Source of the DNA: a virus
IMG/VR virus record: IMGVR_UViG_3300025099_000117
Span: 1 to 26,325 of that record
Reading direction: 5' to 3' (one strand)
DNA: 26,325 nt
Shown here: positions 3,841 to 26,325 of the stretch, piece after piece
How the letters are laid out: each line of letters begins with the position of its first letter
Position numbering within the stretch: position 1 is the stretch's first letter
Program-made: the position numbers and the translations under genes
Notes under the pieces: model-generated
The model's database searches: none
What the model saw: only the letters and a program-made list of their open reading frames with translations
What the model was told of the DNA's origin: nothing

Positions 3841-4771
3841 TAAATACTCCCATTATATTCTGTATTTTATCGTCTGTTAAATTAAGTATAGCACTCAAAT
3901 ACTCAACCAATTCTTCATCCATTGTCATCTCTTTGAGATTTAATGTAGCTTCGCTATTTCGTTTTATTACTTTCTTATCGAGTAACTCAGAGTTCTTCAC
4001 TGTTGCAAGGTCTGCCACATCACCTTCAATTTCATAAATTGTATGATGAAAGTCTGTGGGAATCATCTCGGAAGGGTCTGTTACGGTTTGTCGTAACAGT
4101 TGGGGAAGGTCAAACTTATGCCAAGTCCATGGCGGTAAGTGTTTATCTCTGTGTTCGTCAATCATTAAGTACCCTGTCTCGACTGTAGTTCTATGAAAAG
4201 AAGTAGTCATTGGTGAGCCAGGATAAACTATGTTTAGTTGTGTATTTGTGTGGCTATGTAAGTCTCCTGCATAAACTACAGGAAACGCGCTAAACCTATC
4301 GAGATCAACCTCAGGTGTTACATGTGGTGGTATTTCACCACGCACATGAGTATACAGAGGTTTATCTGGGTTACAAGCCTCTATGCCGCCCTTCTTGTGA
4401 AGGTCAACATAGGGCAGTATTGTACCCCATTCGTACTCTGTAGTCTCGTCAATTATTTCAACGAGAGGGTTAACATCTTGGGTTGCTCTCTTAAGATTTG
4501 AAAAGAAAGTCTTGTATTTCTTTGTAGCTTCATGGTTACCATCATAAATGATAGTAGGTTTCTTTACACCTCTGACAAAGTCAAAGTATAGCGTAAGTTC
4601 ATCCATTGAAGGTACTCTGTCAAACAAGTCTCCTCCTATAACATGCATATCAGCTTGAAGTTCTAGTTCATAGATTTTCTCAAAGAACATTTCAAACCGT
4701 GCACACGCCCAGGGAAGTGGCACATTCTTTTGCCCTAGCTTAATATGCCAGTCTGCCGTAAATAAGATCAT
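3809..4771 (-). CDS. sbcD: SbcD/Mre11-type nuclease (T4 gp47-like)
   Basis: This is the metallophosphoesterase nuclease subunit that partners the adjacent SbcC. The metal-site motifs are in order: TADWHI (D7, H9), GGDLFDR (D48), YDGNHE (N79, H80), H142 in THVRGE, and YAGDLHSHT (H172, H174), followed by YPGSP. The phosphoesterase core fills roughly residues 1-200, and the remaining 120 residues would hold the capping and SbcC-binding parts. Length (320) is typical of phage gp47. Its ATG overlaps the peroxiredoxin stop by 4 bases (ATGA), so it is probably read by ribosomes that have just finished that gene. Confidence 0.93.
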   Translation of the reverse strand: MILFTADWHIKLGQKNVPLPWACARFEMFFEKIYELELQADMHVIGGDLFDRVPSMDELTLYFDFVRGVKKPTIIYDGNHEATKKYKTFFSNLKRATQDVNPLVEIIDETTEYEWGTILPYVDLHKKGGIEACNPDKPLYTHVRGEIPPHVTPEVDLDRFSAFPVVYAGDLHSHTNTQLNIVYPGSPMTTSFHRTTVETGYLMIDEHRDKHLPPWTWHKFDLPQLLRQTVTDPSEMIPTDFHHTIYEIEGDVADLATVKNSELLDKKVIKRNSEATLNLKEMTMDEELVEYLSAILNLTDDKIQNIMGVFNDYSKNSTMG

Positions 4772-5271
4772 CCTACGAATTTATCTCCCGGCTGCCATTC
4801 GCATCCTGTGAGACCACCAGCCTGTAAGGCTTGTAGTGTTCGTAAAGTTTCACTTGCATTTCTTCCTGTATCTAATGCATTTACTGATACATGTTGTATA
4901 ACTCCTTCGGGATCAATTATAAAAGTTGCTCTATAGTGTACTCCATTATCTTCATCAACTATTCCTAGTTTACGACCTAGAGTAAGTCCAGAGTCTGCAC
5001 ATAGTATATGTCCTATGTGACCTAGTTCTGAATTTGATTCTTTCCATGCAAGTTTGCAGAATTCATTATCTCCACTCACGCCAATAGTATCAGCATGATC
5101 GATAAGTTTATCCATATCTACAATCTCTGTCGGACATATAAAAGTAAAATCTTTTGGATAAAAGTACATTACTGTCCATTCATTCAACAGTAAGTCTACA
5201 TCAACGATAGTGTTAGTATCGTTGACTCCGTGCATGTTAAATTTTGGAAATTTATCTCCTACTGTAAGCAT
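4768..5271 (-). CDS. 2-Cys peroxiredoxin (AhpC/TSA family)
   Basis: This is a thiol peroxidase that reduces H2O2 or organic peroxides. The active site reads YPKDFTFICPTE, with peroxidatic C46, T43 and P47, and R114 in HYRATFIID as the conserved arginine. A C-terminal C157 in LTGCEWQPGD is in the position of a resolving cysteine, so a typical 2-Cys mechanism is likely. At 167 residues it is a little shorter than bacterial AhpC. The ribosome site AGGAGG, 5 nt before the ATG, is the best in the window, which points to high expression. It sits between the ssDNA-binding protein and sbcD in one operon, an unusual place for an antioxidant enzyme. The reductant is unknown; no thioredoxin was seen, but a glutaredoxin is encoded elsewhere in the window. 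Confidence 0.93.
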   Translation of the reverse strand: MLTVGDKFPKFNMHGVNDTNTIVDVDLLLNEWTVMYFYPKDFTFICPTEIVDMDKLIDHADTIGVSGDNEFCKLAWKESNSELGHIGHILCADSGLTLGRKLGIVDEDNGVHYRATFIIDPEGVIQHVSVNALDTGRNASETLRTLQALQAGGLTGCEWQPGDKFVG

Positions 5272-8976: not shown

Positions 8977-9443
8977 GTGTCTTTTTCTTTTTTACTAGAT
9001 ACATTGTACAGTACCCAAGGTATATTTTGTTTATATAAAATTCCTGCCCATGTCATATCATCAGACAAAGGTCTTTTTAAAGTAAATGGAAATACACAGT
9101 CCTTACACCATAGTATACTTACTACATCTTTTTTATCTACTTTTAAAATTTTGTGGTATTTTAACTCCACTCTTGTTGTCTTTTCTTTTAGTATAAAATA
9201 TCCAGATGAATCAATATATTGTTTACCTCTATGCATAAGTAGAGAGGGTATATCCTCTAGCATATACTTTAATGGGTATAAACTTTTCATAGGACTTTGA
9301 AGCCTTCTCATTCCAAGAGTTTTTCCTTTCATATTTCTATCATCAAGTACTTGATCTTCCACCCATAGTAATCCATCTTGCATTTCTACATTATCAGTAT
9401 GTACTACATATACTGGGAAGTCAATATTATCATAGTTCAGCAT
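8961..9443 (-). CDS. Hypothetical protein downstream of DNA polymerase, 160 aa
   Basis: I recognise no family. The protein is soluble in composition, with a pair of cysteines (WCKDC near residue 112) and several tryptophans. I chose ATG 9443, which overlaps the polymerase stop by 14 bases and has GAG a few nt upstream; the frame is open further upstream, but a longer start would add a stretch read from inside the polymerase gene. The tight coupling to the polymerase suggests co-production with the replisome. It overlaps the ParB-fold gene by 16 bases. Confidence 0.65.
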   Translation of the reverse strand: MLNYDNIDFPVYVVHTDNVEMQDGLLWVEDQVLDDRNMKGKTLGMRRLQSPMKSLYPLKYMLEDIPSLLMHRGKQYIDSSGYFILKEKTTRVELKYHKILKVDKKDVVSILWCKDCVFPFTLKRPLSDDMTWAGILYKQNIPWVLYNVSSKKEKDTWRMI

Positions 9444-16655: not shown

Positions 16656-16759
16656 AACTCAACCCACCAGCGCAGTAGCATTACTACTATAGTAATACAT
16701 ATTACACCAATGATGGGGGTTGAATATAAGTCAAGCAAGGCTAATACTTGTCTAATCAA
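16652..16759 (-). CDS. Single-pass membrane microprotein, 35 aa, TTG start
   Basis: This is a very short gene nested exactly between the ligase catalytic half and the GIY-YIG-like gene. An excellent AAGGAG ribosome site inside the ligase gene lies 6 nt before a TTG that overlaps the ligase stop codon, and the reading frame ends at a TGA that overlaps the GTG of the next gene. The product has a short amphipathic start (LIRQVLALLDLY) and one hydrophobic segment (PIIGVICITIVVMLL) followed by RWWVEL. The precise tiling makes it a credible gene. Function is unknown; a membrane anchor or host-interaction peptide is possible. A 7-bp inverted repeat (ATTACTA/TAGTAAT) lies inside it. Confidence 0.6.
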   Translation of the reverse strand: MIRQVLALLDLYSTPIIGVICITIVVMLLRWWVEL

Positions 16760-17706
16760 TCTATTCTCCTTACAATTTTAGGGATAATTTCTCCACTACG
16801 GATTACTTCAACTGTACAACCTATTTCTAGTCGTAAGTCGCTTATATATCTCATGTTATGTAAGGTTGCTCTACTAACATTAGCACCATCAATTTCTACA
16901 GGTTCTAAAATAGCTGTAGGAGCAACTACACCTGACTTACCAACATTCCATACCACATCCAATAGTTTAGTGTCAACGCCAGTCTGTATAGACTTTAGAG
17001 CGAAAGCACCTCTAGGGTGGTGTGAAGTATAACCCATTCTTTCAAAATCAGTATAGTTATCCACTCGGAAGACTACACCGTCATCTGGAAACTCAGACCA
17101 TTGAGACTCGATTACAGTATTAAAACCTTGATGGCTTAGCATACCTAAATCTGTTGTCAACATATCTGACATTGCGGGTTGCACTCCATATACAATAAAT
17201 GTGAGTTCTCTAGTTTTGAACTCCTCTGGATCTTTCAAGTTAAGTGCTCCTGCAGCATAGTTGCGAGCGTTCTTAATTGACTTTGGAGCAACTACTTCAC
17301 CAGTTATCTGTTGTACTGAAGCGTGGGGAACAATGTACTCGGGAACTATGTTTATCATTAACTTAGTAATATCTAGTCCTTTTGTACCATCTCCTCGAGT
17401 CAATGCTCGGTGAAGTAAGCCGTCAATATAAAGCAATGAAACCGCTGCTCCATCAAGTTTAGGAGAAACAACTGTTGCTCCCTTATAATCATTTAATGGA
17501 TTTTTATCGACTTCATTAGTAAAAACTTTCTGAAGTGAATACATTGGAAAAGCATGAGGAGTTCGATTATCTCGACTGTTAAAGCCGACTTCATCGAACT
17601 CAGCAACTCTTGCTAACTGGTCAAACTCTTTGTCTGACATAGTGGGGTTACCCTCATAGTATGCAGTAGCCGCGTCTCTCAATATTGCTTTTATATTTTT
17701 TGTCAT
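16756..17706 (-). CDS. NAD+-dependent DNA ligase, catalytic subunit (Ia, adenylation, OB fold)
   Basis: This is the catalytic half of a split LigA. The Ia domain motif AYYEGNPTMSDKEFDQL (15-31) binds NAD+. The adenylation domain has SPKLDGAAVSLLY with the adenylated lysine K83, RGDGTKGLDIT, TGEVV, DGVVFRVD and RGAFALK. The OB fold follows (VGKSGVVAPTAILEPVEIDG ... ATLHN ... VEVIRSGEIIPKI). It ends where a full LigA would enter the zinc finger, which is encoded separately at 15480-16247. The ATG at 17706 starts 6 nt after a TATAAT, so the mRNA is predicted to begin on the start codon (leaderless). Confidence 0.94.
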   Translation of the reverse strand: MTKNIKAILRDAATAYYEGNPTMSDKEFDQLARVAEFDEVGFNSRDNRTPHAFPMYSLQKVFTNEVDKNPLNDYKGATVVSPKLDGAAVSLLYIDGLLHRALTRGDGTKGLDITKLMINIVPEYIVPHASVQQITGEVVAPKSIKNARNYAAGALNLKDPEEFKTRELTFIVYGVQPAMSDMLTTDLGMLSHQGFNTVIESQWSEFPDDGVVFRVDNYTDFERMGYTSHHPRGAFALKSIQTGVDTKLLDVVWNVGKSGVVAPTAILEPVEIDGANVSRATLHNMRYISDLRLEIGCTVEVIRSGEIIPKIVRRID

Positions 17707-17712
17707 TTATAT

Positions 17713-17741
17713 ATTATACTAAATTTATAAACTCATGTCAA
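17713..17741 (-). promoter_or_regulatory. Leaderless sigma-70-type promoter for the ligase catalytic half
   Basis: TTGACA (17741-17736), 17 nt, TATAAT (17718-17713) on the minus strand, with AAATTT in the spacer. ATATAA follows the -10 box and then the ATG of the ligase gene, so the expected +1 is the A of the start codon at 17706. No Shine-Dalgarno site could be present in such an mRNA. Confidence 0.87.
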
Positions 17742-18378: not shown

Positions 18379-18822
18379 TTAGCTATTCATGTTTCCAATG
18401 ATAGTATTAAAGTAAACTGCAGCTTTACCTGTTAGTTTGCTGATGATGTCCATGTCAATCTCTTGACCAGCATCAGTTAGAGAAGCTACTAGGTCGTCTT
18501 GTGCGCCCTGTTTGCTAACTCTAGGTGTTGAAGATTTTGCACTAGATGATCCACCGCTTGAAGGAGTTTTCTTAACATACACTCCTGCTTTAGTAAGAAT
18601 CATACGAACGCCATTTGGTGATTCACCAATCTCGTCTGCAATTTCTTTTACAATCTCCATACTTGTTTCTGGAGTTGGTTCTTGTTCAGTATACATCTCT
18701 ACTGCTTGAGCTTTTTTGTCGTCATCCCACGCCATTTTTCTACCTCGTTTTCTATAGTATTCTGGAAGCCCAAGTGCAAAGCCTGTGCGTTCCCGTTGTT
18801 GTTGATAAAATCTATCTCCCAT
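18379..18822 (-). CDS. SANT/HTH-like DNA-binding protein, single repeat
   Basis: The core (WDDDKKAQAVEMYTEQEPT ... EIVKEIADEIGESPNGVRMILTKAGVYVKK) is a helix-turn-helix unit very like the repeats of the 240-residue protein at 14755-15477. A low-complexity serine linker and a C-terminal helical part follow. Two starts are possible. ATG 18822 begins 7 nt after the -10 box, giving a leaderless mRNA and an N-terminal MGDRFYQQQRERTG segment. ATG 18735 has GAGG ahead and begins directly at the HTH unit. I report the longer one because it fits the leaderless pattern of the sister promoters; both may be used. An even earlier ATG lies inside the promoter and is excluded. Confidence 0.75.
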   Translation of the reverse strand: MGDRFYQQQRERTGFALGLPEYYRKRGRKMAWDDDKKAQAVEMYTEQEPTPETSMEIVKEIADEIGESPNGVRMILTKAGVYVKKTPSSGGSSSAKSSTPRVSKQGAQDDLVASLTDAGQEIDMDIISKLTGKAAVYFNTIIGNMNS

Positions 18823-18829
18823 ATATAAT

Positions 18830-18858
18830 ATTATACAGAAATTTAGATTATAAGTCAA
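18830..18858 (-). promoter_or_regulatory. Leaderless sigma-70-type promoter for the HTH-PC4 operon
   Basis: TTGACT (18858-18853), 17 nt, TATAAT (18835-18830) on the minus strand, with AAATTTCTG against the -10 box. The next ATG begins 7 nt after the -10 box (18822), so +1 falls at or one base before the start codon. Confidence 0.85.
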
Positions 18859-21411: not shown

Positions 21412-21531
21412 TTAATGTGTTAAATTTCGTTCCGAATACCATTTGGACAACCAAATGTCTATTTCTTCTTGTGTCCAATTACTCGGAAAGTATACTGCTA
21501 TATAAGGACTATCTTGTAATACGACTCTCAT
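21412..21531 (-). CDS. Small hypothetical protein, 39 aa
   Basis: This is a short reading frame that fills the gap between the leaderless gene at 21509-22105 and MazG. It overlaps the upstream gene by 23 bases and ends 12 bases before the MazG start. The product (SPYIAVYFPSNWTQEEIDIW segment) has a protein-like composition with no membrane helix. The ribosome site is weak (GAGGAC, too far upstream), so translation may depend on coupling. Function unknown; moderate confidence that it is a gene. Confidence 0.5.
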   Translation of the reverse strand: MRVVLQDSPYIAVYFPSNWTQEEIDIWLSKWYSERNLTH

Positions 21532-22105
21532 AGTCTGCATAGTCCTCGTTCCACCAGTGTGGTTTATCCCTAAACTTCCAACTTGCAAAGGTTGCTTTAT
21601 CTAAATGGTAATAATCTCTATATGATTGTATAGGATTATCATAGTCTTTCAACTCGTCTGGCATTGCCAATCCAAATTGTGTAAAGCCTAACCTTTCCAT
21701 ATGTTGTGGTTCGGGTAATTTATTTACTACTTGTGCTATGGACTTATGTTCTTTGCCATATCTGTATCTATACTCGTCATTCAATGCATTGCCATAGCAA
21801 TGTGTCCACTCATGATTGTCCAATGATGACCTAGCCCATATAGTACATGGGTGGTTATACATCATTGGTAAATAAGGTGTGATTGGTCTATCTTCTGGAA
21901 GTAGGTGTTTGATTTTAGATTTTTCTTCATTCAAAACATCTCTTTCTTCTTTATTCAAAGCTCTAGGAACAAACCCTAGAAACTTATCTACCCATATGCT
22001 AGTGCATAGTATCTGTGCTACTTCGAGAGGCATTTTGACAATATGTTTGTCAACATGGTACTCGGCACACTTGTCTAGATTTTCGTCTAAGTAAAATAAA
22101 TTCAT
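21509..22105 (-). CDS. Conserved phage protein of unknown function, leaderless
   Basis: The N-terminus, MNLFYLDENLDKCAEYHVDK followed by HIVKMPLEVAQIL, is a pattern I recall from many marine phage hypotheticals, where the histidine- and lysine-rich helix is well conserved. Some relatives may be labelled pyrimidine-dimer-glycosylase-like, but I cannot confirm that here. The rest is rich in histidine and aromatic residues (MYNHPCTIWARSSLDNHEWTH; KPHWWNEDY). The ATG at 22105 starts 6 nt after TATAAT, so the mRNA should begin on the start codon. It is the first gene of a nine-kilobase-side operon of small genes that includes MazG and DUF3310. Confidence 0.78.
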   Translation of the reverse strand: MNLFYLDENLDKCAEYHVDKHIVKMPLEVAQILCTSIWVDKFLGFVPRALNKEERDVLNEEKSKIKHLLPEDRPITPYLPMMYNHPCTIWARSSLDNHEWTHCYGNALNDEYRYRYGKEHKSIAQVVNKLPEPQHMERLGFTQFGLAMPDELKDYDNPIQSYRDYYHLDKATFASWKFRDKPHWWNEDYADYESRITR

Positions 22106-22111
22106 AAGTAT

Positions 22112-22140
22112 ATTATACAGAAATTATGAGGAGATGTCAA
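22112..22140 (-). promoter_or_regulatory. Leaderless sigma-70-type promoter for the MazG operon
   Basis: Perfect TTGACA (22140-22135) and TATAAT (22117-22112), 17 nt apart, on the minus strand, with AATTTCTG against the -10 box. ATACTT and then ATG follow, putting +1 on the start codon at 22105. The -35 box overlaps the stop codon of the glutaredoxin gene. Confidence 0.88.
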
Positions 22141-23850: not shown

Positions 23851-24153
23851 CTATATGTAAAAACTTTCTCCGCATCCACAGCGACCAGTTTCTTGTTCAT
23901 TAACGATATGAAATGACTCACTAAAATCATCAGTTTTCCAATCCAATATCGCATCTGTTAAATATTTATTACTTAGTATGTCTACTACTAAGATTTCTTG
24001 ATATACTATATCAGTTAAATCATGATTTTCGGCATGGCTTAACTCATATGTATAACCACCACAACCACCGCCACTCACTTTCAAGCGAGCGCCCCAAGGG
24101 TTTGAGGCGACTCTCCTTTTTAAGTGTTCTAGTGCGGTGGACGTGATTTGCAC
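23851..24153 (-). CDS. A-type iron-sulfur cluster carrier (IscA/ErpA/HesB family)
   Basis: This is a 100-residue Fe-S carrier. The three cluster-binding cysteines are in place: C31 in SGGGCGGYTYEL and C92, C94 in GRCGCGESF. The fold's middle segment is shorter but the spacing is that of A-type proteins. It could mature or protect Fe-S enzymes of the host during infection. The start is GTG 24153, at the usual distance from the conserved core; the ribosome site is weak. It lies between a membrane microprotein and lysozyme, in the hsp20 operon, and fits the stress theme of that operon. Confidence 0.92.
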   Translation of the reverse strand: MQITSTALEHLKRRVASNPWGARLKVSGGGCGGYTYELSHAENHDLTDIVYQEILVVDILSNKYLTDAILDWKTDDFSESFHIVNEQETGRCGCGESFYI

Positions 24154-24282: not shown

Positions 24283-24711
24283 CTAACCTATGTTTATGCT
24301 TTTGGGTTTTTCAGCTTCAGGTGTGTTTACCACTAGATTTATAACAAGCATTCCGTCCTTGAATACTGCCTCATCTACTTCCACCCAACTGCCTAGAGAA
24401 AATTCTCTTGTGAAAGGTTTTCCACTTAATCCTTTATGGATATAGCTTTCTTCCTCGTTTGTTTCCAACTTAGTTGTACCCTCAATGGTGAGTGTATTCT
24501 TTCGCTGGGTCACCTCGATATTTTCTTTTGACCAGCCAGGCAAAGCCATCTCTATTCGATATGCTTCATCGCCTACTGATACTAGATTATATCTAGGGTA
24601 ATTTGTCAATGGGTTATTAGCAACCCTGTTTGATAAGTCTCGGTTGAGACGATCGAATCCGACAAACAATTTGTCGAAATCGCTAAAATTTAAATGCTGT
24701 ACTACAGTCAT
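24283..24711 (-). CDS. Small heat shock protein (Hsp20/IbpA-like)
   Basis: This is an ATP-independent holdase. The alpha-crystallin domain spans about residues 42-135: YNLVSVGDEAYRIEMALPGW, IEVTQRKNTLTIEG, FTREFSLGSWVEVDEAVFKDGMLVINL, and a C-terminal SINIG in the place of the I-x-I/V anchor motif. The length is 142, as for bacterial IbpA. AGGAG precedes the ATG. It is the first gene after a 223-nt hairpin-rich leader, so its expression may be controlled by RNA structure, as is known for IbpA-type genes in bacteria through RNA thermometers. Phage copies probably protect capsid or host proteins during infection. Confidence 0.94.
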   Translation of the reverse strand: MTVVQHLNFSDFDKLFVGFDRLNRDLSNRVANNPLTNYPRYNLVSVGDEAYRIEMALPGWSKENIEVTQRKNTLTIEGTTKLETNEEESYIHKGLSGKPFTREFSLGSWVEVDEAVFKDGMLVINLVVNTPEAEKPKSINIG

Positions 24712-24979: not shown

Positions 24980-25120
24980 TCAGTCGTCAAAGTCTATCTG
25001 CCCATCTTCTTTTAAGAAATCCAATGTCCTAGATATCCAATACTGTTTTGTAGCATGGTAAGTTATATGCACCGCGGCTACAAGAATTATTATGTATGAG
25101 AGGTCTATTTGCCAATCCAT
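24980..25120 (-). CDS. Single-pass membrane microprotein, 46 aa
   Basis: An AGGAG site lies 7 nt before ATG 25120, and the start overlaps the end of the 92-residue gene by 16 bases. The product has one hydrophobic N-terminal helix (LSYIIILVAAVHI) and a charged cytoplasmic tail (FLKEDGQIDFDD). It ends 11 bases before the -35 box of the hsp20 promoter. Function unknown. Confidence 0.65.
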   Translation of the reverse strand: MDWQIDLSYIIILVAAVHITYHATKQYWISRTLDFLKEDGQIDFDD

Positions 25121-25383
25121 TCTACATCTCCTCGTGGTATCACTTGATACGCACCTTTGTTATAGGCGGGAGCAACTGTAAACTTCTTACTTTCTTCCAG
25201 TTTCCAACTATTGTCTTTCGCTGGAGCGTACCCTGTAGATTTATAACTAGGTATCTCTGTAGATTTACTACTGATAGTTTTTGTACTCTGTGCTACAAAG
25301 TCTGGTCTTTTTGCTTTCTTCCATGCATTAGTTTTTCGCTTGCGTCCACTCGGGCTATGCCTCATGCTTCCTCGTACTATCAT
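25105..25383 (-). CDS. Basic hypothetical protein, 92 aa
   Basis: The N-terminal third is strongly basic (RHSPSGRKRKTNAWKKAKR), the middle is serine- and threonine-rich, and the C-terminus has a KFTVAPAYNKGAYQVI and DVEWIGK part that looks conserved. AGGAG precedes ATG 25383. It may bind nucleic acid. It is the first real gene after the promoter at 25419-25447, although that transcript begins with an ATG-TAA pair (see findings). Confidence 0.68.
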   Translation of the reverse strand: MIVRGSMRHSPSGRKRKTNAWKKAKRPDFVAQSTKTISSKSTEIPSYKSTGYAPAKDNSWKLEESKKFTVAPAYNKGAYQVIPRGDVEWIGK

Positions 25384-25418
25384 AAATTTGTCTCCTATAA
25401 AATAATTTACATATGTAT

Positions 25419-25447
25419 ATTATACAGGAATATTCACCGAAAGTCAA
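25419..25447 (-). promoter_or_regulatory. Sigma-70-type promoter, leftward arm of the divergent pair
   Basis: TTGACT (25447-25442), 17 nt, TATAAT (25424-25419) on the minus strand. ATACAT and then ATG TAA follow, so the predicted transcript begins with a start codon directly followed by a stop. The gene proper starts at 25383 with its own AGGAG site. The -35 box lies only 31 bases from the rightward -35 box. Confidence 0.82.
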
Positions 25448-25478
25448 GTAAAATTCGAACCACTCCTAAAAATAGTTC

Positions 25479-25507
25479 TTGACTTCTACTTAAGAATTTG
25501 CTATAAT
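25479..25507 (+). promoter_or_regulatory. Leaderless sigma-70-type promoter for the SANT-bS21 operon
   Basis: TTGACT (25479-25484), 17 nt, TATAAT (25502-25507), with AATTTG near the -10 box. ACACAT and then ATG follow, so +1 falls on the A of the start codon at 25514. It is the only rightward promoter of the leaderless type and is back-to-back with the leftward one. Confidence 0.86.
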
Positions 25508-25513
25508 ACACAT

Positions 25514-25678
25514 ATGAAATACGAAAATAAATGGACAGACAAAGAACTTCGCTTGTTGAAAGCGTACTACGGAAAAGTGCCGAACTCGAAGTTAGCCGCT
25601 GAGCTAGGAAAGACTCCTACAGCCCTCGCAAATAAGGTTCACTATCTAAGAAGGCGTGGGTGGACATTTAATGCGTAA
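25514..25678 (+). CDS. SANT/Myb-like mini-protein, 54 aa, leaderless
   Basis: The whole protein is a single DNA-binding unit: KWTDKELRLLKAYYGKVPNS, then KLAAELGKTPTALANKVHYL and RRRGW. It has the same architecture as the repeats of the genes at 14755 and 18379 (acidic WTD/E start, helix, then the IA-x-x-LGKs-x-x-s HTH). The ATG starts 6 nt after TATAAT, so the mRNA is predicted to be leaderless. The stop lies 8 bases inside the bS21 gene, so the two are made together. It may autoregulate the operon or the divergent promoter; that is inference. Confidence 0.82.
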   Translation: MKYENKWTDKELRLLKAYYGKVPNSKLAAELGKTPTALANKVHYLRRRGWTFNA

Positions 25679-25889
25679 TAACTTTGACCGAATGCTAAGA
25701 AATTTCAAGCGTTATGTCACGAAGAAAGGCGTAGTCGAAGAAGTCCGTAAAAGACAGTATTACATCAAGCCTTCCGAACAAAAACAAATAAAAAAGAACG
25801 CTGCAAAACGGAGAGCAGCACTGCAAAAACGACAAGACGCCCAGGCACCTCGCAGAGGGTATATAAATCGTTCCAGAAAAAAACGATAA
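25671..25889 (+). CDS. rpsU: Ribosomal protein bS21 homologue
   Basis: This is a 72-residue protein with the bS21 signature: FDRMLRNFKRYVTKKGVVEE (5-24) followed by VRKRQYYIKPSEQKQIKKNA (25-44) and an arginine- and lysine-rich tail. It matches bacterial bS21 in order and spacing (FD-x-AL-x-x-FKR, a KxGVxxEVRxRxYYxKPS core). bS21 sits near the anti-Shine-Dalgarno end of 16S rRNA in the 30S subunit and acts in initiation. Phage-encoded bS21 has been reported in several marine phages. I use ATG 25671, which overlaps the SANT-like stop by 8 bases; an in-frame ATG at 25656 is possible. It may replace the host protein in ribosomes. Confidence 0.93.
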   Translation: MRNNFDRMLRNFKRYVTKKGVVEEVRKRQYYIKPSEQKQIKKNAAKRRAALQKRQDAQAPRRGYINRSRKKR

Positions 25890-25945
25890 CTTATCCAAAA
25901 TATACACTTTTTTATGTTAAGTGAAAGCCACACAGACCTTATATT

Positions 25946-25969: not shown

Positions 25970-25998
25970 TTGCATTATTGCTAAACTTGTGGTATAAT
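25970..25998 (+). promoter_or_regulatory. Sigma-70-type promoter driving rightward non-coding RNA
   Basis: TTGCAT (25970-25975), 17 nt, TATAAT (25993-25998). ATATACA follows, so +1 is near 26005. No coding frame begins near there, so like the hsp20 promoter this one should produce a long untranslated RNA before any gene, which would lie beyond the window. Confidence 0.78.
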
Positions 25999-26004
25999 AT
26001 ATAC

Positions 26005-26325
26005 ATAAATTGATAATCAACCAAGCTAACTACTGTTAAACAAATCAATAAAACCCTAATCTAAAGAGCACTGCATGAGAAAGATTTTTTGTGGGAGTGT
26101 AAACGGGAACAAAAAATAATCTCGAATCCAGTGTCTCTGATAAGAATTATAATTGGTTTCTATTATAAGCAACCGATTATACACGATAAAACTAAACAGT
26201 CGTTAAGCTAATATCAAATTTCAACACTAAAACCAAGTTACTACACTTGCGTATCTTTTTTACTTCCACAACTTCCGAAAGTCCAAAATTTTTTAACTAA
26301 ACTATAACGGACTATCCCAAATTAT
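26005..26325 (+). ncRNA. Structured non-coding region after the rightward promoter (long leader or ncRNA)
   Basis: From 25890 to the window edge (436 bases) I see no credible gene on either strand. After the predicted +1 the RNA can form a compound hairpin: CACTG (26069-26073) with CAGTG (26129-26133), GAGA (26077-26080) with TCTC (26120-26123), and ATTTTTTG (26084-26091) with CAAAAAAT (26110-26117). A second stem, TATAATTGGTT (26148-26158) with AACCGATTATA (26171-26181), has 11 pairs including one G-T. A CAAGT/ACTTG hairpin follows near 26240. It could be the 5' leader of a rightward gene beyond the edge, or a stand-alone ncRNA. Confidence 0.5.

Follow-up and report, generated by a model that had tools for sequence, protein, structure and literature searches.

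A cassette made up of a predicted leaderless HTH gene, a gene for ribosomal protein bS21 and a structured RNA is conserved, as judged from comparison of sequences, in a group of T5-like phages, and it suggests an adjustment of translation initiation on the host ribosome by the phages. Phage bS21 is already known; in this group, dozens of contigs show a tight genetic linkage of bS21 with a predicted leaderless message class and a structured RNA. The setting in a predicted leaderless HTH operon and the RNA, which is absent from Rfam 15, appear to be new, and the open-licence PMC literature yielded no description of an HTH-bS21 operon that is leaderless and linked to a structured RNA, which is weak evidence of absence. 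The group is a natural system in which the effect of bS21 on message choice becomes directly testable.

We analysed the cassette in record IMGVR_UViG_3300025099_000117, whose 26,325 bases (in their entirety, the window) belong to the linear class in IMG/VR and are probably a fragment. Its parts are:

25471-25507, + strand: operon promoter, with the element AATAGTTC at 25471-25478, a -35 TTGACT at 25479-25484, a 17-nt spacer and a -10 TATAAT at 25502-25507
25514-25678, + strand: single HTH/SANT-like protein of 54 aa, D5-like, predicted leaderless (PHROG 323, E 6.5e-8; pLDDT 86)
25671-25889, + strand: bS21 (rpsU-like), 72 aa (PF01165, 49.5 bits; alignment with E. coli bS21)
25904-25919, + strand: conserved element ACACTTTTTTATGTTA directly 3' of bS21, kept in L006, L007, L011 and L050 and altered in others
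25970-25998, + strand: second promoter, with TTGCAT at 25970-25975, a 17-nt spacer and TATAAT at 25993-25998, followed by ATATACATAAATTG
26005-26294, + strand: putative structured noncoding RNA of ~290 nt (fold z -3.1; no Rfam match; no credible ORF)
26063-26142, + strand: core hairpin of the RNA with a conserved bulged U (14/19 pairs compensatory; covariance model R1, 58.4 bits)

The first-pass annotation had read this locus as a two-gene operon. Its gene calls and coordinates, the 8-nt overlap and the placement of the HTH/SANT-like gene and bS21 on the + strand, with the remaining credible window genes on the - strand, are all borne out. That reading overlooked the third part, the structured RNA with its own strong promoter, and the kinship of the first protein to D5.

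The phage and its gene content

By its gene content, a T5-type replication set that includes a split ligase, the phage of this record is T5-like (Demerecviridae). The likeness to phage T5 (AY543070) takes in the split LigA/LigB, a D5-like protein, DNA polymerase, a D10-type helicase, D12/D13-type nucleases and a flap endonuclease, as well as a promoter-like sequence common to the window and T5-type phages. T5 differs in that no bS21 is annotated in its 1-100 kb region. No close isolate phage was found for the window, and identity of its DNA polymerase to those of isolates is at most 44-45%. The search for a cultured relative with the cassette found none, with weak matches of the promoter region to isolate phages (E at least 0.8) and 0 matches for bS21 by tblastn. 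Scans of genome contigs with bS21 gave nothing useful for host assignment, and tRNA genes that might serve for host matching number 0 in the window and are few in relatives. Host-like genes on the - strand of the window include one for a peroxiredoxin-like protein, judged from sequence alone (4768-5271), one with a weak Fe-S biosynthesis domain match just below the Pfam cut-off (23851-24153) and one for Hsp20 (24283-24711).

The two proteins of the operon

The 54-aa protein is most aptly called a single HTH/SANT-like unit with kinship to the D5 family of T5. The PHROG profile that it matches is that of a D5-like regulator, and its predicted model consists of three helices. On these grounds the initial label of a SANT/HTH protein is fair as far as HTH/SANT-like goes. 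Membership of the SANT family itself is unproven, since no Pfam cut-off is reached, with weak Myb-type matches in a few relatives only, and a Foldseek comparison with PDB folds returns nothing significant (best E 0.47).

The identity of the second gene as bS21 is certain from its sequence. Its Pfam score lies well above the cut-off of 27 bits (E 3.4e-13), it matches PHROG 21469 'ribosomal protein S21' (E 4e-14) and its top PDB match is E. coli bS21 (E 2e-8). The alignment with the E. coli protein reveals the core residues F, LR, F, G, R, Y, KP and A that the window protein has in common with cellular bS21. The N-terminus is ~7 residues shorter than in E. coli, and close relatives carry a variable, often basic stretch there; this segment is not a defining feature of the family, and its shortness leaves family membership standing. 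The bS21 start has no clear SD and overlaps the stop of the HTH gene by 8 nt (25671-25678, ATGCGTAA), an arrangement in which translation of bS21 is probably coupled to that of the HTH gene. Between the window and L001, bS21 has a dN/dS of 0.18 and the HTH gene one of 0.20; both genes are short and have few changes, and these values indicate that both proteins are under purifying selection.

Published phage bS21 proteins (Mizuno 2019, PMC6375957; Chen 2022, PMC9723584) are likewise phage-borne, have the Pfam core and are under purifying selection, and Hsp20, which lies near the window bS21 too, is a frequent neighbour of theirs. The published bS21 phages are described as having structural-gene neighbours and late expression, whereas the window bS21 belongs to a predicted leaderless HTH operon that has a structured RNA next to it and genes for replication, lysozyme and Hsp20 in its vicinity.

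A class of predicted leaderless promoters

Six nucleotides separate the TATAAT of the operon promoter from the ATG at 25514, and the predicted +1 is the A of this ATG. The geometry (TTGACT-17-TATAAT-6-ATG) had been noticed at first pass and holds up as a prediction; it is identical in L001, L006, L007, L011, L013, L015, L016 and dozens more loci. The leaderless start of the HTH gene is a strong sequence prediction. The pattern TTGAC-N18-TATAAT-N5..8-ATG occurs at five sites in the window, compared with 0 in 100 dinucleotide-preserving shuffles, and real genes lie behind four of the five. Besides the HTH gene, these are:

16756-17706, - strand: LigA, NAD-dependent DNA ligase subunit (PHROG 3359, E 2.6e-102); promoter 17704-17741; predicted leaderless, 6 nt after TATAAT
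18379-18822, - strand: 147-aa DNA-binding protein (PHROG 1725, E 2.2e-27); promoter 18820-18858; predicted leaderless, 7 nt
21509-22105, - strand: 198-aa protein of a DNA-binding family (PHROG 624, E 2.3e-46); promoter 22103-22140; predicted leaderless, 6 nt

The earlier statement that this phage starts several operons without an SD site agrees with these four predictions. The fifth site (25410-25447, - strand) leads into a start-stop ATGTAA and lies upstream of a divergent 92-aa gene (25105-25383, - strand), which has this ATGTAA at its predicted +1, followed by an SD-bearing leader and its true start. Homologues of the gene in L013, L065 and L069 start leaderless, so it looks like a natural switch from a leaderless to an SD-led start. 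In G007, a tRNA-Ala (9051-9126) falls inside the leaderless ORF of a homologue of the same gene (L157, 8970-9263), and L083 and L092 contain stretches resembling 'GAVAQ.GER..CTAKVA'.

A scan of IMG/VR with AATAGTTCTTGAC-N17..18-TATAAT-N5..8-ATG finds at least 120 stretches. Among 141 distinct sites in loci from the fetched sets, TTGAC and TATAAT are 18 nt apart in 140, and the gap from TATAAT to ATG is 6 nt at 86 sites, 7 at 34, 8 at 19 and 5 at 2; the search pattern itself requires an ATG at 5-8 nt, and the informative features are the peak at 6, the constant spacer and the real genes downstream. An ORF of at most 15 aa follows 16 of the 141 sites; these 16 probably arose by chance or are remnants, and one of them is cut by a contig end. 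In its extended form, AATAGTTC-TTGAC-N18-TATAAT-ATG, the promoter is widespread among the IMG/VR stretches and precedes ligA, DNA-binding, zinc-ribbon and other small genes, and conservation of AATAGTTC within this class points to a recognition element of its own. In several relatives the terminase small subunit (PHROG 3802) is also predicted to be leaderless (L156 10031-10489 on the - strand, G002 and G010).

By a looser criterion that takes in a few doubtful sites, promoter-like sites with a start codon 4-9 nt after the -10 make up 4 of 26 in the window, 10 of 29 in G002, 10 of 36 in G010 and 10 of 57 in G001. In contrast, the promoter-like sites of T5 (1-100 kb) are essentially never leaderless (1/46, at 9 nt). 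A crude census of phages of the group puts ~4-9% of genes as leaderless and 27-44% as having a clear SD (39% for SD in T5), percentages that are rough because the gene caller is simple and because SD and promoter signals sway the choice of start.

A structured RNA downstream of bS21

The 5' end of the RNA is placed from the second promoter and its 3' end from a short hairpin and U-run at 26271-26294. None of 200 shuffles folds as well as the window RNA. The core hairpin shows compensatory double changes at 14 of the 19 pairs and a covariation of 0.647, compared with 0.295 +/- 0.042 when shuffled, and the signal is lost when partners are slid; the alignment comprises seven sequences only, and the structure was predicted from the same seven. 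The covariance model built on them finds further copies in L050, L072 and L048, each close behind bS21, and no copy in 90 other promoter-set loci or in T5 1-100 kb.

No Rfam 15 family, OLE included, reaches its gathering threshold in the window, L001, L006 or L007, and at E<=1 the matches in seven relatives are tRNAs and sub-threshold chance matches, all outside the RNA. With its strong covariation, this appears to be an RNA family absent from Rfam. On this lack of Rfam matches we rejected OLE, GOLLD, ROOL or another known family. We also rejected a mimic of 16S rRNA, SD or anti-SD as a general explanation, as matches of 8-12 nt to E. coli 16S are at chance level and no SD or anti-SD motif is common to all subtypes. 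The promoter, the compensatory changes and the terminator-like end favour a transcript here rather than a replication origin.

A 22-mer across the -10 of the second promoter occurs in 8 contigs, with bS21 upstream in 8/8. Throughout the group this promoter takes the form TTGC, 17-19 nt, TATAATATATACATAAATTG; similar sequence lies between genes of T5-type phages, and the T5 promoter P-H207 in particular may be alike. Other bS21 loci of the group have more divergent RNAs behind a similar promoter, and their position and shared motifs make it likely that all RNA subtypes form one family. Repeats like AACCCCGTTGCGGTTT lie 3' of the RNA in L006, L007, L011, L013 and L015 and are possibly bidirectional terminators.

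Conservation of the cassette

Loci fetched by the promoter alone include ~40 with bS21, which in nearly all comes right after a single-HTH gene (ATG 6 nt after TATAAT); several contigs are near relatives and the fetched sets overlap, so neither this count nor those below represent independent events. In relatives bS21 mostly overlaps the HTH gene or trails it closely, and as a rule it lacks an SD. A conserved gene of ~86-87 aa (M.KVIPFPK...) intervenes between the two in L006, L007, L011, L013 and L016; it is absent from the window and L001, and its L007 copy has no PHROG match.

When loci are fetched by the RNA motif alone (one subtype), 23 contigs result, one of which has just 108 nt of upstream sequence and is untestable. 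In all 22 testable contigs bS21 precedes the motif by 239-255 nt on the same strand; the HTH gene is present in 21 of them and the leaderless promoter in 20. The protein fetch, which covers the best 80 of 529 bS21 loci, includes 31 with the HTH gene. A leaderless promoter lies at most 1.3 kb upstream in 28 of these 31; for some of the 28, the gene that it precedes is not the HTH gene but a different one, a few hundred bases ahead of bS21. The RNA promoter is found in 25 of the 27 that are testable. The other 49 of the best 80 have neither the leaderless nor the RNA promoter, and nearly all have a coding gene after bS21. Strict leaderless sites number 38 in 155 kb around the HTH-type loci versus 0 in 252 kb around the other class.

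The co-occurrence of rpsU with leaderless promoters, put forward as a check in the first-pass annotation, is strong within the T5-like group and fails as a general rule; the 49 loci among the best 80 of 529 rule out the statement that bS21 phages use leaderless messages. One contig, G008, has a single leaderless site and no bS21 over 52 kb of a contig that is a fragment.

Possible functions of the cassette

The explanation that we tentatively favour is a conserved host-takeover cassette, in which bS21 exchanges into the host 30S subunit and shifts initiation in favour of phage messages. The predicted promoter, a strong one of sigma-70 type, would start transcription on the AUG of the small D5-like HTH gene, and the leaderless message would make an SD unnecessary for translation of the operon. 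bS21 would then be produced by coupling, exchange into host 30S subunits and alter initiation at the platform beside the anti-SD, such that phage messages gain, much as envisaged for bS21 paralogues in Francisella. The small HTH protein would probably be a regulator of this promoter class or of phage transcription, and the structured RNA would probably act in the same process as bS21. Consistent with this account, the whole cassette is kept in independently fetched sets, both proteins appear to be under purifying selection and the bS21 core residues are retained. E. coli 70S ribosomes take up a pelagiphage bS21 (PMC6375957), bS21 is loosely bound and exchangeable (PMC12186496) and Francisella bS21-2 changes the protein levels of a subset of genes and not their transcript levels (PMC9578407). 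Ribosomes without bS1, uS2 and bS21 favour leaderless messages (PMC4929434). The Francisella homologues resemble the phage case in that an alternative bS21 is proposed to alter the choice of translated messages, but they are cellular paralogues with no leaderless operon or RNA, and the comparison is by function only.

Several observations argue against host takeover. Most genes of these phages are not leaderless and many have an SD, and another lineage of bS21 phages has no leaderless promoters. bS21 tends to be missing from species whose messages are mostly leaderless (PMC12054373), and for this reason added bS21 should rather benefit SD-led messages. Opposite outcomes are allowed by the published data, in which bS21 supports SD-led initiation and its loss, along with that of other proteins, favours leaderless messages (PMC4929434, PMC12054373), while a pelagiphage bS21 nearly abolishes translation of a GFP reporter (PMC6375957). 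It is very likely that the phage bS21 enters ribosomes, and it probably changes initiation in one direction or the other. The original suggestion that bS21 tunes ribosomes to leaderless phage messages is plausible as a hypothesis; bS21 should be no simple switch to such messages, because the phage's own SD genes (27-44%) would suffer.

A rather unlikely alternative is that phage bS21 tops up a limiting, exchangeable ribosomal protein and sustains initiation late in infection, that leaderless starts are merely compact strong early promoters on genes and that the two traits share a lineage without interacting. This would suit the 49 loci among the best 80 of 529 that have bS21 without leaderless promoters, the SDs retained by phage genes and the presence among the leaderless genes of ligase, terminase small subunit and DNA-binding genes that have no link to translation, but it does not account for the close association of bS21 with both the HTH gene and the structured RNA in almost all members of the group. 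If the phage bS21 were instead partly incompatible with the host, it might cripple SD-led host initiation while the leaderless lead genes, having no need of SD/anti-SD pairing, are spared. The short N-terminus of the window bS21, variable in the group, and the finding that E. coli ribosomes with pelagiphage bS21 made only ~5% of GFP reporter protein (PMC6375957) are compatible with such a shut-off. We nevertheless regard it as very unlikely, as 27-44% of the genes of these phages have a clear SD by the crude census and would also be affected, and the 5% result may, according to its authors, reflect host mismatch (PMC6375957).

The RNA could have a more direct part. It is quite unlikely, in our estimation, that bS21 and the RNA, whether within an RNP or on one ribosome, jointly reprogram initiation during infection to the advantage of leaderless phage messages over SD-led messages of the host, which if true would constitute a phage-encoded switch of initiation mode. 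A most unlikely reading has bS21 bind the adjacent RNA, as host bS21 binds OLE RNA, so that this pair, and not a changed ribosome, would be the functional unit. The linkage of bS21 and RNA in 22/22 testable loci, the restriction of the RNA promoter to HTH/SANT-type bS21 loci and the OLE precedent (PMC12054373) would fit such a particle. However, no SD/anti-SD mimic is kept across RNA subtypes, there is no significant 16S similarity and the RNA has its own promoter, so that joint action with bS21 is not required. The OLE ribonucleoprotein is alike in connecting a structured noncoding RNA with bS21; OLE is a ~600-nt bacterial RNA that binds host bS21 via an SD/anti-SD mimic (PMC12054373), whereas the window RNA is ~290 nt long and phage-borne, has no Rfam match or conserved mimic and is a putative ligand of bS21. 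T5 itself (AY543070) has several annotated stable RNAs without assigned function (rnaX and others), for example at 40848-41566.
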